44,114 nucleotides of DNA from an uncultured Acidobacteriia bacterium (GTDB lineage: Bacteria > Acidobacteriota > Terriglobia > Bryobacterales > Bryobacteraceae). The position numbers and the translations under genes were made by a program. Within the stretch, counting starts at the first letter, position 1; the number at the start of each line of letters is the position of its first letter. The stretch spans positions 1 through 44,114 of the forward strand of contig CAIRXZ010000028.1 in NCBI GenBank assembly GCA_903882645.1, given 5' to 3'. This document shows positions 11,850 to 35,790 of this stretch, piece after piece. The notes below the pieces were generated by a model, which was not told the DNA's origin, searched no databases, and saw only the letters and a list, made by a program, of their open reading frames with translations.

Positions 11850-12178
11850 GAGGCGATGTTGTAGTCCTCAACTTCCCCTTCTCGGACCTCAGCCAGACGA
11901 AGCGGCGGCCGGCCCTGGTCATCGCGACCCTCAAAGGCGACGACGTCATCCTGTGCCAAATTACCGGTCAAGCGAGATTCGATGAATACTCGATTCGCCT
12001 TGATGACGTGGATTTCGTCGCGGGCGGGCTCAGCCAGAGCAGCAGGATTCGTCCGAATCGGTTATTTACAGCCGATGCGGGCATCGTCGTCTATCGGGTC
12101 GGGCACGTCTCCGAGGCGAAGCTCAGCGAAGTGGTGGAGCGGCTTATCGCCATCGTCAGCCTTGGGGGGGCTCAGTGA
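11807..12178 (+). CDS. PemK/MazF-family endoribonuclease toxin
   Basis: Up to 123 residues. The MazF/PemK core is clear: GDVVVLNFPFSDLSQTKRRPALVI near the N-terminus and SRIRPNRLFTAD in the middle, with the Arg and Ser/Thr positions used for RNA cleavage. The start is uncertain. TTG at 11807 opens the frame, but AGGAGG at 11820-11825 sits 8 nt before an in-frame CTG at 11834, which would give a 114-residue protein starting just before GQFVRGDVV, the normal MazF N-terminus. The gene overlaps the antitoxin gene, and its last 7 nt overlap the convergent gene's 3' end. Confidence 0.8.
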   Translation: MAYATGGCGLGQFVRGDVVVLNFPFSDLSQTKRRPALVIATLKGDDVILCQITGQARFDEYSIRLDDVDFVAGGLSQSSRIRPNRLFTADAGIVVYRVGHVSEAKLSEVVERLIAIVSLGGAQ

Positions 12179-14511
12179 ACCCGCCTCAGGCGCGCCAGAG
12201 TCTCCCGCGCATAGTCCAGATCGGGCCTGAGCCGAAGCGCCGCCTCGAGGTGCGTGATGGCCTCGGCCGAGCGGCCGGGCATCCTGGCCAACGCGAGGCC
12301 CAGGTTGTAGTGGGCTTCGACCAGGTCGGGGTTGCCGCGCAGCGCGGCCTGGTACTCGGCGATCGCCTCGGGCATTCGCCCCGGCATATCCGACAAGGCG
12401 AGCGCCAGGTTGGCGTGCGCCTCGGGGTAGTCCGGCCTTATGCGCACCGCCGCCCGGTATTCGGTAATCGCGTCCGGAAGCCGCCCCGGCATGTCCGATA
12501 GAAGGCTGCCCAGGTTATAGTGCGCCTCGGCATAGTCGGGTTGGATGCGCAACGCGGCCTGGTATTCGGCGAGCGCCTCGGACGCGCGCCCCATCCGCAA
12601 CATGAGGCCGGCGAGGTTCAGATGGGCCTCCGCGTAGTCGGGCCTCACGCGTAACGCCGTCTGGTATTCGGCCAGCGCGTCCGTCCAACGATCCTGGAGC
12701 TTCGAGTAGGCGTTCCCGAGGCTGAAATGCGCCGCCGGCGAATCGGGGTCCAGCCGCAACGCGGCTTGGCATTCGGCAATGGCGTCCGGCAGCCGGCCGG
12801 GGAGTTCCGCCAGGGCGCCTCCCAGGTTGGCGTGCGTATGGGCATCGCCGGGCTCGGCGCCCAGGGCTGCCCGATATTCCGCGACAGCCTCCGGAAAACG
12901 CCCCGCCGCCGATAGGGCGTCACCCAGCGCGGAATGCGCGTCCGCGTAGCCGGGCCGGATGCCCAGCGCGGTTCGGTACTCAGCCACGGCCTCGGCCGAC
13001 CGGCCGGGGATCCTCGACAGGGCCAGTCCCAGGTTCGTGTGCATCTCCGCGGACTCCGGGTTGAGCCGTAGCGCCTCGTGGAGTTCGGCGAGCGCCTCGG
13101 GCATCCGGCCGGGGACCCGCGCGAGCGCGTTCCCCAGGTTGTTATGCACCACCGCGAGATGTGGATCGATCCTCAGGGCGGCCTGGAAATGGCCGATGGC
13201 TTCGGGAAGCCGGCCGGGAATGTTCATGATCCCCGTCCCCAGGTTTAAGTGCGCCAACCAGGCGCCGGGGTTGCGCGCCAGGGTCTCGCGGTAGAGGGTT
13301 TCGGCATCAAGGTACATCCAGCTCTGGGCCCAGGTCAGTCCCCCGAGAACGGCCGCTAAGCCCACCCCACACGCGGGAGCGAACCGGCGAGCGGCGGGTG
13401 GGAGCCGGCGCGCCGCCAGCACAAGCCCCGATGCCGCCGGAACGATGATTCCCAAAGTCGCCAGGTACTGAAAGTGATCGGCGACGTAGGAATAGACGAA
13501 CGGATATACGTTGAAGAATCCCAGGGCCGGAACGAGCGTCCCGGCAAAGTAGAGGAAGCCGGCCAGCGGTCCCCGGTGTTTTCGCGCGGCCACCCACAAG
13601 GCCCCCGCCGCCGCCAGCGCGGCGAGCGGAAACAGGTACTGGCGCCAATCTCCGGCGTCCACCGTCCAGCGCGGATAGATGAACGTCAGGTTCCGCGGCC
13701 AAAGCAGTTTGCCGAGGTAGAACCAAATGGCCCGGCCCGCCACCAGGACGCGGTCCACGGGCGTCAGGCTGTACGCCGCTCCCTGCGCCCCGATGTAGTT
13801 CCGTTCCACCCAGGCGGTGAAGGTCCCGGCGGCGGCGGCGAGGCCAAACCAGGGCAGCAGAGGCCTGGCGTCCCGCTTCCAATCGATACGCCCGCGCTGG
13901 AACCAGAAGATCAGCAACAGCGCGGCCGGGAGCGTCGCGGCAATCGTCTTACTGAGCAGCGCGCAGACGAAGAATCCCAGGGCGGCCGCGTAGTGCGGGC
14001 GCCGCCTGGAGCCATCGAAGCGCAGGTAGGCGAGGCCGGAGGCTAAATAGAAAACCGCCGAAAGGGTGCTCTTCTGCTCCGAGATCCACGCCACGGCTTC
14101 CACGCACACAGGATGCAGGGCGAAGAGAAAACCCGCCAGCCACGCCCCCGGAAGGGCCAACCGGCGCATGATCGCCACCACCAGGCAGGCCGCCGCCGCG
14201 TGCAGGAGCACGCTCACCAAGTGGTAGCCCAATACCGAATCGCCCCAAAGCCGGTGCTCGAACCAGAACGCGGTGTGCAACAGCGGATAGTATTGCTGGG
14301 TCGCTCCGAGATCGAACCAGATGCGCCACAGGCCATGAAACGACCGCAGGCCCGGCCGGGTCACATGGGCGACGTCGTCCCACAGGGGTCCGCCGCGGAG
14401 GGCTGGCCAATAGGCGATCAGAGTGGCGCAGAATATCAGCGCGCCCAGGCCGAGATCCCGCGGAGGAAGCGTCTTCGCAGGCAAGGCTCCGGCTGGGGGC
14501 TTCTTCCGCAT
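12172..14511 (-). CDS. TMTC-like membrane protein: GT-C glycosyltransferase-type domain plus TPR repeats
   Basis: A 779-residue protein. Residues about 20-395 hold roughly ten membrane helices. The first external loop has the acidic pair D45-D46 in PLWDDVAHV, where GT-C enzymes carry their catalytic Asp, and a conserved EAVAWISEQKSTLSAVFYLAS stretch split over a loop and helix follows. Residues about 420-779 are ten tandem TPRs with a regular 35-residue period, each starting near P-G-R. Known: eukaryotic TMTC1-4, with the same layout, are O-mannosyltransferases; bacterial members are uncharacterised. Inferred role: sugar transfer to exported proteins. The gene at 14710 is a paralogue on the same strand. 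The 105-nt internal DNA repeats could drive copy-number changes. Confidence 0.75.
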   Translation of the reverse strand: MRKKPPAGALPAKTLPPRDLGLGALIFCATLIAYWPALRGGPLWDDVAHVTRPGLRSFHGLWRIWFDLGATQQYYPLLHTAFWFEHRLWGDSVLGYHLVSVLLHAAAACLVVAIMRRLALPGAWLAGFLFALHPVCVEAVAWISEQKSTLSAVFYLASGLAYLRFDGSRRRPHYAAALGFFVCALLSKTIAATLPAALLLIFWFQRGRIDWKRDARPLLPWFGLAAAAGTFTAWVERNYIGAQGAAYSLTPVDRVLVAGRAIWFYLGKLLWPRNLTFIYPRWTVDAGDWRQYLFPLAALAAAGALWVAARKHRGPLAGFLYFAGTLVPALGFFNVYPFVYSYVADHFQYLATLGIIVPAASGLVLAARRLPPAARRFAPACGVGLAAVLGGLTWAQSWMYLDAETLYRETLARNPGAWLAHLNLGTGIMNIPGRLPEAIGHFQAALRIDPHLAVVHNNLGNALARVPGRMPEALAELHEALRLNPESAEMHTNLGLALSRIPGRSAEAVAEYRTALGIRPGYADAHSALGDALSAAGRFPEAVAEYRAALGAEPGDAHTHANLGGALAELPGRLPDAIAECQAALRLDPDSPAAHFSLGNAYSKLQDRWTDALAEYQTALRVRPDYAEAHLNLAGLMLRMGRASEALAEYQAALRIQPDYAEAHYNLGSLLSDMPGRLPDAITEYRAAVRIRPDYPEAHANLALALSDMPGRMPEAIAEYQAALRGNPDLVEAHYNLGLALARMPGRSAEAITHLEAALRLRPDLDYARETLARLRRVH

Positions 14512-14583: not shown

Positions 14584-14717
14584 CCCGCTAAGAAGCCGCA
14601 AAAGAACTCAGGCCGCCGATGAACGCGGATAAACGCGGATTGAAAACGAGAATCTCATCGGCGTTAATCGGCGTTCATCTGCGGCTCGAAACGGTTTTCT
14701 TACGGCTTCTCAGCGGG
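14584..14717. repeat. Long palindromic repeat of the GATGAACGC family (copy A)
   Basis: Outer arms CCCGCTAAGAAGCCG (14584-14598) and CGGCTTCTCAGCGGG (14703-14717) pair with one mismatch. Inner arms, at about 14608-14641 and 14656-14686, carry the 10-nt-period motif (CGGATGAACG repeated) in inverted orientation, with a loop near 14642-14655. The right outer arm runs over the last codons and stop of the gene at 14710-16800, so on the minus strand the hairpin immediately follows that gene and could stop or slow transcription. Confidence 0.75.
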
Positions 14718-16800
14718 CGGTTTGTGGCGAGGCCGCCCGCAACCGGGCCAGCGTCTGGCGGATCTCGTCCACATCCGGTCTGAGGCGGGCCGCAGCCTCG
14801 ATATGGCTGACGGCCTCGGGCAGACGTCCTGGGATGGCCGCCAGCGCCTGCCCCAGCCCGTAGTGCGCTTCGGCGAAATCGGGCGCGGCCCGCAACGCGG
14901 CCTCGAACTCCGCGACGGCGTCCGGAAGCCGGCCGGGCAGGCCCGATAGCACCACGCCCAAGTCGAAGTGCGCCTCCGCCCAGTCCGGCCGGATGCGAAG
15001 CGCCGCCTGGTACTCGGCGATCGCGTCGGCCGTCCGGCCTTGGACCTTCAAATAGGCGCCTGCCAGGTTGAAGCGCGCCTCGGCCAGATCCGGATCGAGC
15101 CGCACGGCCGTCTCCAAATGGACGATCCCCTCCTGCAAACCGCCGGGAGTCTGCGTCAGCGCGGCCCCCAGGTCGGCATGCACCGAGGCGGGGTCCGGCT
15201 CAATGCGGCCCTCAATCATAGTCGGCTTGAGCCGCAACGCCGCTTCCAGGTGCGTGATCGCGTCCGGCAGCCGCCCGGGGACCTTCACCAGACAGCCGGC
15301 CAGACCATAATGGCCCTGGGCGTAGTTGGGATCGACCCGCAGCGCCGCTTCGAACTCGCCGATGGCATCCATCAACCGGCCGGGTGTCTCCGCGAGGGCG
15401 CTGGCAAGGTTGTAGTGGACCTCCAGGCTGTCGGGCTTGAGCCGCACGGCCGTCTCAAGGTGGCGGAGCGCTTCCGGCATCCGGCTGGGGGTCTCGGCAA
15501 TCAGGACCCCGAGGCTATACTCCGCCGCCCAGGCATCGGGGTTGCGCGCCACCGAATCGGCGAAGAGCGTCTCGCCGTCCCTGTAGAGGCCGCTCTGGTT
15601 CCACGAGAGAGCGCCCAGGACCACCACAACCGCAGCCACCGCGGCGCCGGCCGGTCGACGCGCCGGCTTGGGAACCCGGTTCACCGCCAGAACCAGGCAG
15701 GAAGCCACAGGCGCCAACACGTACAGGGTGGCAAGGTATTGAAGATGGTCGGCCACGTAGGAGAACCGAAACCAGTAGACGTCAAAAAGACCAAGCACCG
15801 GGACAAGCGTTCCAAAGAACAACAGAAACGCTGCCAACGGTCCGCGGCGCCCCTTGACTGCCAGCCACGCCCCGGCCACGGCGGCCGCAATCAAACCCGC
15901 CGCCGGAAGATACTGCCCCCATTGGGCCGGGTCCACGGTCCATCGCCGGTAGAAGAACGTCAGATCGGCGGGCCAAAACAACTTGAGCGCATAGAACCAG
16001 ACCACCCGCGCCGCAAGCAGGCAGCGGGCGGCCAGCGTCATCGCGAAATCCGGGCCCGCGGCCCCGGTGAACCGCCGTTCCACCAGGGACGTAAACAGAC
16101 CGTACGACGCCCCGATCCCCAGCCACGGAATCAGCGGCCGGATGTCCGGTTTCCAGTCCAGCCGGCCCCGGCGCCACCAGAGGACCACCAAGAGCGCGGC
16201 GGGCAGCGTGGCCGTGACGGACTTGCTCATCAGCGCCAGCGCAAACAGTCCCAGCGCCTGGAAATACCGCGCCGGCCTTCGCGACTTGTCGAAATCCAGG
16301 TAAACCAACGCCGAGGCGAGGTAGAAGACCGTGGAAAGGGTGTTCTTCTGCTCGGAAATCCACGCTACCGATTCCACGCACGCCGGGTGCAGCGCCCAGA
16401 GCAGGCCAGCCAGCCAAGGCCCCGGCAGGCCCAGGCGGCGCATGATCGCCACTACCAGGAAGGCCGCCGTAACGTGCAGCAGCACGTTGGTCAGATGATA
16501 GCCTTCCACCGCGTCCCCCCACAGCCGGTGCTCCACCCAGAAGGCGCTATGCAGAATGGGCCACCAAAACTGGTGGACGGCCCCCACCCTGGTCCAGATG
16601 AGCCAAAGACCCTGTAAGGACCGGAGCGCCGGAGCCGTCACATAGTCCAGGTCGTCGGTGATGAATGCGCCGTGAAGCGCCGGCAGATAGGCGGCAAAGC
16701 CGGCGCCGAACAGCAAGGCCGCCTTGGCGATCTCCCAACGGTTGTCCGGACGGCTGGGCGCCGCGGCCTCGGCAGCCTTGGATGGACGTTTTGCCGCCAT
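14710..16800 (-). CDS. TMTC-like membrane protein, paralogue of the gene at 12172
   Basis: A 696-residue protein. It has the same plan as its neighbour: about ten membrane helices in residues 25-395, the acidic pair D49-D50 in AFITDDLDYV, a matching SVAWISEQKNTLSTVFYLAS block, then about seven TPRs (405-690). The TPR array is shorter and has an irregular insertion near residue 545 (GRIEPDPASVHADLG). The two genes are tandem paralogues and probably arose by duplication; copy A of the palindromic repeat lies between them. Inferred role: GT-C-type glycosyltransfer at the membrane, with TPRs presenting the protein substrate. Acceptor and donor are unknown. Only one start (ATG at 16800) is plausible. 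Confidence 0.75.
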   Translation of the reverse strand: MAAKRPSKAAEAAAPSRPDNRWEIAKAALLFGAGFAAYLPALHGAFITDDLDYVTAPALRSLQGLWLIWTRVGAVHQFWWPILHSAFWVEHRLWGDAVEGYHLTNVLLHVTAAFLVVAIMRRLGLPGPWLAGLLWALHPACVESVAWISEQKNTLSTVFYLASALVYLDFDKSRRPARYFQALGLFALALMSKSVTATLPAALLVVLWWRRGRLDWKPDIRPLIPWLGIGASYGLFTSLVERRFTGAAGPDFAMTLAARCLLAARVVWFYALKLFWPADLTFFYRRWTVDPAQWGQYLPAAGLIAAAVAGAWLAVKGRRGPLAAFLLFFGTLVPVLGLFDVYWFRFSYVADHLQYLATLYVLAPVASCLVLAVNRVPKPARRPAGAAVAAVVVVLGALSWNQSGLYRDGETLFADSVARNPDAWAAEYSLGVLIAETPSRMPEALRHLETAVRLKPDSLEVHYNLASALAETPGRLMDAIGEFEAALRVDPNYAQGHYGLAGCLVKVPGRLPDAITHLEAALRLKPTMIEGRIEPDPASVHADLGAALTQTPGGLQEGIVHLETAVRLDPDLAEARFNLAGAYLKVQGRTADAIAEYQAALRIRPDWAEAHFDLGVVLSGLPGRLPDAVAEFEAALRAAPDFAEAHYGLGQALAAIPGRLPEAVSHIEAAARLRPDVDEIRQTLARLRAASPQTAR

Positions 16801-16874: not shown

Positions 16875-16891
16875 CCGATGAGGGACATCGG
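16875..16891. repeat. Short palindrome at the 3' end of the GxxExxY gene
   Basis: CCGATG-AGGGA-CATCGG, a perfect 6-bp stem, lies 6 nt beyond the minus-strand stop codon. The stem sequence equals the head of the repeat family found at the gene's other end, so it may be a vestige of a flanking copy. It is short enough that chance cannot be excluded. Confidence 0.35.
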
Positions 16892-16897
16892 GTTCAT

Positions 16898-17314
16898 TTA
16901 TGACGGCGCTTCAAGGGGCTCGGGAGTCTGGAACCCATGGACGATACGCTTCCACTCGACTTTGGGCTTTTGGAAATTGACTAGAAGACAGAGCGTGCGG
17001 CCGGAGGCCCGCAGGTAGTTGAGACATTGCGCGGTGTGCTCGTTGGCGAGGCGCTCCACACATTTCAGCTCGACCAGCAGCACGTCTTCGACGAGGATAT
17101 CGGCAAAGTATTCTCCGACATACTGACCCTTGTAGGTTATTGCAAATGAAGCTTGGGCGCTGGCCCGAATGCCACGAAGGCTGAGTTCTCTGAGCAGAGC
17201 GCGCTCGTAGACTTTCTCGAGGAATCCAGCGCCAAGAGTATTGGAGACCTCAAAGATAGCGCCGAGCACGCGCTCGGTCAGCGAATCGAAGAATCCGCGT
17301 TCATCGGTGTTCAT
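16898..17314 (-). CDS. GxxExxY protein, PD-(D/E)XK nuclease-like
   Basis: A 138-residue protein, matching the family length of about 130. The signature GFLEKVY (30-36) contains Glu33. Asp72 in YFADILV and E82-L83-K84 in LLVELKCV complete a PD-(D/E)XK-type set. The C-terminal part (LNYLRASGRTLCLLVNF) is also typical. The first seven codons (MNTDERG) are read from the palindromic repeat described at 17292; the conserved family core begins only after about residue 12. A second ATG in the repeat, 10 nt downstream, is out of frame. Known: the family is widespread, often multi-copy, and has no established function. It stands alone, not in an operon. Nuclease activity is inferred. Confidence 0.82.
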   Translation of the reverse strand: MNTDERGFFDSLTERVLGAIFEVSNTLGAGFLEKVYERALLRELSLRGIRASAQASFAITYKGQYVGEYFADILVEDVLLVELKCVERLANEHTAQCLNYLRASGRTLCLLVNFQKPKVEWKRIVHGFQTPEPLEAPS

Positions 17315-17399
17315 CGGCGGCTAATTCCTACGTGCCGTCTTAGGCCAATACCTCTCAGTATTATTATTAGCCGCCGATCAACGCGGATGAACGCAGATT
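17292..17399. repeat. Inverted pair of the GATGAACGC repeat family (copy B)
   Basis: Left arm 17292-17325 and right arm 17366-17399 are 34-nt inverted copies with about 30 of 34 positions matching, separated by 40 nt. Both carry ATTAGCCGCC heads, which here face each other across the spacer; in copies A and C the heads face outward. The GxxExxY start codon is in the left arm. Arms contain the 10-nt unit CGGATGAACG. Confidence 0.8.
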
Positions 17400-22151: not shown

Positions 22152-22248
22152 TTGGCCGCGGATGAACGCAGATCAACACGGATTGGGGGAGTGCAAGTGC
22201 TTTGTCTGTAGCCTAATCTGTGTTCATCGGCGTTGATCGGCGGCTAAT
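22152..22248. repeat. Inverted pair of the GATGAACGC repeat family (copy C)
   Basis: Left arm 22152-22185 and right arm 22215-22248 are 34-nt inverted copies (about 27 of 34 positions), with a 29-nt loop. The heads (GGCCGC left; GCGGCTAAT right) face outward. It lies between the TonB receptor gene and the gene at 22305. Confidence 0.75.
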
Positions 22249-35734: not shown

Positions 35735-35790
35735 AATGGCCGCGGATGAACACCCAAGAAAGGTCTGTCCGCTTCTGTCGGCGGCTCAAC
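35735..35790. repeat. Degenerate copy of the GATGAACGC repeat family (copy D)
   Basis: GGCCGCGGATGAACACC starts at 35739 and an inverted TGTCGGCGGCTC head closes at about 35787. The inner parts have diverged, so it pairs poorly. It lies between convergent genes. Confidence 0.5.

Follow-up and report, generated by a model that had tools for sequence, protein, structure and literature searches.

Why should the start codon of a small nuclease gene lie inside a palindromic repeat that occurs, without any gene, elsewhere in the same genome? The question is raised by a stretch of 44,114 nucleotides from an uncultured Acidobacteriia bacterium, called the window here. A sequence-only reading of the window had suggested that GxxExxY proteins may recognise or spread the repeats, as a RAYT-like system with a different enzyme, and had named two checks: enrichment of inverted repeats at GxxExxY genes, and agreement between repeat number and gene presence among genomes. 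Positions of the gene, its arms and the related palindromes are listed in Table 1.

Table 1. The GxxExxY gene of the window, its arms and the related palindromes.
Feature	Position	Strand	Remarks
GxxExxY gene, PD-(D/E)XK nuclease (predicted)	16898..17314	-	138 aa; TIGR04256/PF13366 match
5' arm, GAT type	17292..17325	-	gene sense: tip AGCCGCCG then ATG AAC ACC GAT GAA CGC GGA TT
Spacer between the two arm tips, 40 nt	17326..17365	.	partly conserved in copies of same-family genomes
Second arm, tip to tip with the 5' arm	17366..17399	+	unit shared with G172 and G186 stops at its inner end (17398-17399)
Unit of two arms and gene	16905..17399	-	85% identity in two G172 copies, 79% in G186
Gene-less (solo) palindrome, same arm type as window gene, tips outward	14612..14685	.	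arms 14612-14641 and 14656-14685; pairing outward to about 14584-14717
Gene-less (solo) palindrome, same arm type as window gene, tips outward	22155..22244	.	arms 22155-22184 and 22215-22244
Degraded half-copy, weak	35739..35786	.	11/25 motif positions

The ATG at 17314 and the first seven codons had been placed inside an arm with an inverted copy further upstream, and the arm coordinates bear this out; the two arms, 40 nt apart, are 88% complementary. The 5' arm contains the ATG and the codons that follow, so that translation would begin inside it, with MNTDERG as the N-terminus. The two arms stand tip to tip, so that the gene is not enclosed by them; the two gene-less palindromes of the window have their tips outward. 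No 3' arm was found for the window gene, either by its inverted-repeat score (9.5, below the threshold of 15) or by a motif scan of the window. The same layout, with tip-to-tip arms, a 40-nt spacer, the gene and no 3' arm, is kept in two other genomes (G172 and G186). A third G172 copy matches the unit from 17338 inward at 83%, and in G188 and G166 the matching portion is the gene part (71-81%). The window gene is a side lineage or side form with both arms tip to tip before the gene, and a circular permutation of the usual element form is one idea for this layout. By eye, relatives of the window gene in G172 (L386, L387, L389) apparently lie inside another inverted-repeat element, with ends TAGTGTCCAGGAATTAA. 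A CCGATG/CATCGG palindrome reported just past the stop is real (16875-16891), but it stands at chance level, with 135 such stems in the window.

The protein meets the cut-offs of both family models by a wide distance, with 137.7 bits for TIGR04256 (cut-off 35, E 2.1e-40) and 136.5 bits for PF13366, PDDEXK_3 (cut-off 22, E 7e-40). All 26 scanned GxxExxY proteins match PF13366, and the only other family at E ≤0.01 is Cas_Cas4 (Pfam), in 2 of them. Residues E33, D72, E82, K84, Q96, Y100, G30 and Y36, among others, are invariant in the 26 proteins, which confirms the PD-(D/E)XK-type residues (E33, D72, E82/K84) pointed out earlier. A structure model of the window protein (pLDDT 91.9) has as its top fold match SSO0001, a Cas4 (Z 9.6, rmsd 3.5, 103 residues); LHK-Exo, lambda exonuclease, MGME1 and the nuclease parts of AddAB are matched at lower scores, and I-Bth0305I weakly. 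A search of the PDB by sequence gave no match for the GxxExxY protein, and PADLOC none beyond a weak Cas4 match for one of two proteins. The conserved E/D/ExK core and the Q96/Y100 pattern, a QxxxY-type motif, fit a place for GxxExxY in the RecB/Cas4 branch of PD-(D/E)XK nucleases, as does the predicted fold.

The repeat family had also been noted at 14584-14717 and 22152-22248 and, degraded, at 35735-35790. The first two copies are well supported: six arms of a 30-nt motif in the window score 23-25 of 25, and the reversed window gives 0 hits of at least 13. The third is a family copy at best as a degraded half (Table 1). Folded as single-stranded DNA, the three palindromes of the window give z values of -6.5, -7.0 and -7.4; Rfam gave no match in the window. 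Across the full assembly of 5.27 Mb in 366 contigs, 44 places carry the motif with at most 3 mismatches, and none carries the reversed motif. Inspection by eye of 22 contexts shows loops or outer segments common to several gene-less palindromes, which therefore look like dispersed copies. The genome holds one other GxxExxY gene, whose flanking inverted repeat (TTACCGCCGAGGCGCGGAGACGCGGAG and its complement) is of another kind.

A GxxExxY gene is carried by 45 of 119 sampled genomes of the window's phylum. Each locus was scored by its best inverted repeat in the stretch from 300 bp before to 300 bp after the domain, and scores of at least 15 were counted as flanking repeats. Of 92 loci sampled from this phylum (43 genomes), 75 have such repeats, whereas of 87 control positions 1 does. 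The 92 loci omit a large share of the partial matches, the genomes G025 and G104, the short locus L278 and two loci of G097, L063 and L064, which score 49 and 34.5, respectively. For a sample of many phyla, the best 80 of at least 552 GxxExxY relatives from named genomes were taken, ranked by closeness to the alignment; by their record titles they belong to many phyla and include one archaeal record. Among these, 59 of 79 loci have flanking inverted repeats (the 80th was too short), compared with 16 of 2,266 positions of the same geometry in the same loci. Control genes of the ParE type, taken from the same 119 genomes and scored in the same way, never reach even 12 (0/30). The gene and its arms form a unit in many phyla, and the enrichment of inverted repeats at GxxExxY genes named as the first check is present. 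Below the threshold are 17 of the 92 and 20 of the 79 loci. As in RAYT/REP systems, the gene is flanked by inverted palindromic repeats in most loci, the copy in the window being an exception.

The second check concerned repeat number, and here too the two go together. Matches to two repeat patterns were tallied for each of the 119 genomes. At least five repeats are present in 35 of the 45 genomes with the gene and in 5 of the 74 without it (p 7e-16; totals of 2,364 and 269 repeats). When repeat number was permuted against the gene within families, the association persisted (p 0.0016; 11 families holding both kinds, 52 genomes), and gene presence thus goes with the abundance of cognate repeats as in RAYT/REP systems. 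The type of repeat follows the type of arm among the 39 genomes with at least one flanked gene: GAT repeats are more numerous in genomes with GAT-armed genes (8 vs 31 genomes, p 0.002), and GAG/AAG repeats in genomes with GAG/AAG-armed genes (30 vs 9 genomes, p 0.004). Behind the 80 named loci, 50 gene-bearing genomes were scanned with a generic arm pattern, a scan confined to genomes with the gene, and gave 2,933 matches compared with 6 for the reversed pattern; 39 of the 50 have at least five. Gene-less palindromes with similar arms are abundant in most gene-bearing genomes. Exceptions occur on both sides. A profile search at E ≤10, run without a positive control, found no GxxExxY gene in three repeat-rich genomes, G118 (118 repeats), G018 (61) and G030 (35), all draft assemblies of 240-280 contigs. 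Nor was a gene found in four more genomes, with 4-7 repeats (G053, G106, G045, G059), and seven have the gene and fewer than 3 pattern matches (G008, G047, G051, G058, G062, G075, G097).

The arms follow a simple grammar. A typical arm has two to four CRC-N-RAK units of 8-11 nt behind the tip (TT)(A)ACCRC; the spacing of CRC-N-RA units is 8-11 nt in 90% of 412 cases. The median arm length is 32.5 nt and the median size of the element, end to end, is 500 bp (138 elements). Past the CC tip, inverted similarity persists over some 7 nt before it fades (87 elements). GAG, AAG, GAT and AAT are the commonest arm types, and 16 of the 138 elements with repeats fit no type. In G097, another GxxExxY gene (L063) is bracketed by perfect 49-nt inverted repeats, which do not follow the CRC-N-RAK form. 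The unit GATGAACGC of GAT-type elements often gives an in-frame ATG, with N-termini such as MNTDE and MNADE. The start codon within the repeat, described for the window gene, is frequent in this type (14/23 elements) but not general, being found in 15/47 GAG and 6/26 AAG elements and more rarely than in GAT in most other types.

Arm type varies together with the protein. Among proteins thinned to below 70% identity, arm type agrees with that of the nearest protein of another genome in 79 of 108 cases, whereas 10,000 shuffles gave a mean of 24 and a maximum of 43; this covariation could partly mean joint inheritance. In orthologous elements at fixed sites, a change in the 5' arm has its counterpart in the 3' arm in 22/33 and 54/84 comparisons, the pairs being non-independent. 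Covariation of arm type with protein and concerted change of both arms would fit recognition of the arms by the nuclease. The idea that mismatches are selected at the degenerate position of the units was rejected as unsupported. At this position both arms share the base in 0.79 of cases against 0.39 expected, in arms chosen by an alignment that favours matches, and the arms therefore look like mutual copies rather than separate motifs.

A gene between inverted repeats, together with many gene-less copies, points to an undescribed small mobile element. To judge from these sequence comparisons, it is on balance probable that GxxExxY genes are what a small mobile element, some 500 bp long, encodes, the nuclease gene standing between an arm and its inverted copy. 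This would most likely be a REPtron-like element in which a Cas4/RecB-like PD-(D/E)XK nuclease replaces the tyrosine transposase. The nuclease, probably a multimer, would bind the arm units, whose spacing is close to one turn of the helix, and the bound arms may be extruded as a hairpin. The enzyme would cut at the arms; repair or replication would then place a copy of the element elsewhere. The gene-less palindromes may be non-autonomous copies moved in trans, as is thought for REPs and RAYTs. Since both checks named in the sequence-only reading came out favourably, the RAYT-like idea passes its own two tests. Flanking repeats and repeat number uphold it; the copies that ride on other elements and the repeat-rich genomes in which no gene was found do not.

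These last observations are the ground of the strongest rival explanation, in which the palindromes are moved by another agent, such as a RAYT, an IS transposase or host repair, and GxxExxY is a passenger that perhaps protects or processes them. In G097 (L062-L083), an IS4/5-type element (PF13340, DUF4096) bears a GxxExxY element, which has 52-bp inverted repeats of its own. The high copy number in this genome was considered as spread by GxxExxY and rejected, as the gene adjoins the IS4/5-type transposase and moves along with that element. Among 18 related G097 copies, 11 have one common internal deletion, 4 have other deletions, 1 matches to mid-gene and 2 contain the full-length gene. A passenger role would agree with these copies, with the apparent location on another element in G172 and with the lack of a detected gene in some repeat-rich genomes. 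However, if the gene were a passenger, there would be no reason for it to follow arm type across phyla or repeat number within families, and the gene lies between such arms in most loci, not occasionally. This explanation is considered unlikely. In two queries, 6 and 5 of 72,556 plasmid records had GxxExxY, one query of 50,697 phage records found none, and PHROGs gave no GxxExxY match.

Two elements of G087 were followed in one genus, where each search of 41 genomes led to 30 loci; both elements sit between conserved genes, in the same orientation as their neighbours. Site 1 is bordered by genes that Pfam identifies as thiolase and 3-hydroxyacyl-CoA dehydrogenase. Its 30 loci comprise 9 gene-length open-frame elements, 1 deletion derivative, 6 gene-less palindromes of other arm type and 14 with none; the 14 empty loci have a short TCCAACC...GGTTGGA stem, with one variant. 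Site 2 lies before a CTP synthase gene, and its 29 loci (the 30th, without one flank, was left out) comprise 13 gene-length open-frame elements, 2 shortened ones, 1 gene-less palindrome, 1 degenerate copy and 12 with none. The presence or absence of the element differs between related species at these fixed sites, which may reflect gain or loss. Palindromes at site 1 (L209, L214, L218, L219, L221 and L222) vary in arm type from one species to the next, which gives the site the look of a preferred one. Direct duplications at the element ends were counted in 85 elements. At offset 0 there is a small excess, observed and expected numbers being 5 and 2.1 for 2 nt, 5 and 1.9 for 3 nt, 2 and 3.2 for 4 nt, and 3 and 0.6 for 5 nt. 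No consistent target duplication was seen at offsets 1-7 in these elements, the ends of which are approximate and the self-complementary flanks of which, such as TTAA, can mimic short duplications.

The same sites bear on a homing-like explanation, in which the nuclease would cut gene-less palindromes and the gene-bearing copy would then be copied into the break. Homing endonucleases of the PD-(D/E)XK type are known, and I-Bth0305I is a weak fold match of the window protein. Gene-bearing elements and gene-less palindromes have a common arm form, and one intergenic site holds a gene-bearing element, a gene-less palindrome or neither, depending on the species. Homing would require an empty cognate site in relatives; at the two sites, however, relatives hold neither form or palindromes of another arm type. 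The gene-less palindromes of relatives (6/30 and 1/29) differ in arm type from the gene-bearing elements, and 14/30 and 12/29 relatives have no evident palindrome of this kind, although the short stem in the 14 site-1 relatives could be a relic. Insertion of a mobile element into new sites fits these loci better, and homing appears distinctly improbable. Like the PD-(D/E)XK homing endonucleases, GxxExxY would be a small selfish nuclease; unlike them, it is not known to lie within an intron or intein, and it is flanked by inverted repeats and has many gene-less relatives.

A further comparison comes from the four-helix-bundle, S23-like family TIGR02436. It was tried as a control family and proved unusable, because 27 of its 30 loci are themselves flanked at a score of at least 15. 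Many arms at these loci (L284-L313, the best per genome in the window's phylum) have units of about 7 nt, for example GGCAGTAGGCAGTAAGCAGTAGGCAG or GTGACTAGGGGACTAGG. A small gene between inverted repeats is thus a parallel arrangement in this family. TIGR02436 genes are present in G118, G018 and G030, the repeat-rich genomes in which no GxxExxY gene was found.

The parallel invites an explanation at the RNA level, as for the intervening sequences (IVS) of 23S rRNA: the stem formed by the arms would be removed from the transcript by RNase III, making insertions into operons harmless, and the gene would maintain the stem or the element. In the available part of the source (PMC4990558), IVS/S23 elements are small, measuring about 430-500 bp, and enclose one small gene in terminal inverted repeats, as do the elements described here. 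They differ in that the IVS protein is a four-helix bundle and the IVS lies in rRNA and is cleaved from RNA by RNase III, according to the same excerpt. The position of the two followed elements between conserved genes, co-oriented with them, would also suit such a process. On the other side, the GxxExxY protein has a predicted DNA-nuclease fold with its PD-(D/E)XK residues kept, and units 8-11 nt apart would suggest binding to a duplex. An Rfam scan of 17 of the 80 named loci found one tRNA, one TPP riboswitch and one int-alpA RNA, all away from the gene, and no rRNA. An RNA-level process of this kind is very improbable. Least credible of all is the view that the repeats, which are intergenic where examined closely, are ordinary terminators or regulatory palindromes with a host nuclease nearby by chance, since neither the ParE genes and same-locus control positions nor the presence and absence of elements between conserved flanks accord with it.

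The mobile element preferred here may thus be compared with known systems. In the available part of Nunvar et al. 2010 (PMC2817692), RAYT/REP systems are described as having flanking inverted repeats, coevolution of gene and repeat, and a correlation with repeat abundance. The GxxExxY repeats resemble REPs, as presented in that part, in being inverted flanking repeats that are abundant where the gene is present, covary with it and are thought to be non-autonomous. The enzymes are unlike: GxxExxY is predicted to be a Cas4/RecB-like PD-(D/E)XK nuclease, with all 26 scanned proteins in PF13366, whereas RAYT is a tyrosine (HUH/Y1) transposase related to IS200/IS605. Judged by this predicted enzyme, the GxxExxY system is no RAYT system. 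The repeats also differ, the GxxExxY arms being made mostly of 8-11-nt CRC-N-RAK units and REPs being GTAG-tagged repeats, as given in the available part of PMC3733652. The gene-less palindromes resemble MITEs and other small mobile sequences of bacteria in being short, presumably non-autonomous, intergenic elements of inverted-repeat form. MITEs derive from IS elements with DDE transposases, and their insertion as a rule duplicates the target; at the 85 GxxExxY elements no clear target duplications were found.

The system is best seen as REPtron-like; should the nuclease turn out to be what moves the repeats, it may form a mobile-element class of its own. A broader proposal is more tentative, and its chances are put slightly short of even: GxxExxY nucleases would define a class of autonomous mobile element, found in many bacterial phyla and at least one archaeon, whose single Cas4/RecB-like PD-(D/E)XK nuclease moves palindromes of helically phased 8-11-nt units; intergenic repeats of the ACCACAGAGACACAGAG and GATGAACGCGGATGAACGC types would be its non-autonomous offspring, and the four-helix-bundle S23 proteins a sister class whose arm units measure about 7 nt. 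Should the nuclease be the mover, a very widespread set of short repeats would owe its spread to a protein family of which mainly the name is known. This would explain where the repeats come from and offer for study a form of transposition that uses a new enzyme. The link between gene and repeat is strong even if the nuclease is not the mover. In the searched portions of the open-licence literature, no connection of GxxExxY, PF13366 or TIGR04256 with repeats was found, nor did a search of open-licence literature for six literal arm sequences return any. The arm types and their cognate proteins form ready pairs for tests of DNA recognition.

One minor observation concerns the neighbourhood of the gene in the window. 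Two large neighbouring genes (12172-14511 and 14710-16800) share 76% DNA identity over 265 nt (14015-14279 compared with 16289-16553). The latter has PMT_2 and TPR matches, and one of the gene-less palindromes is located between the two genes.
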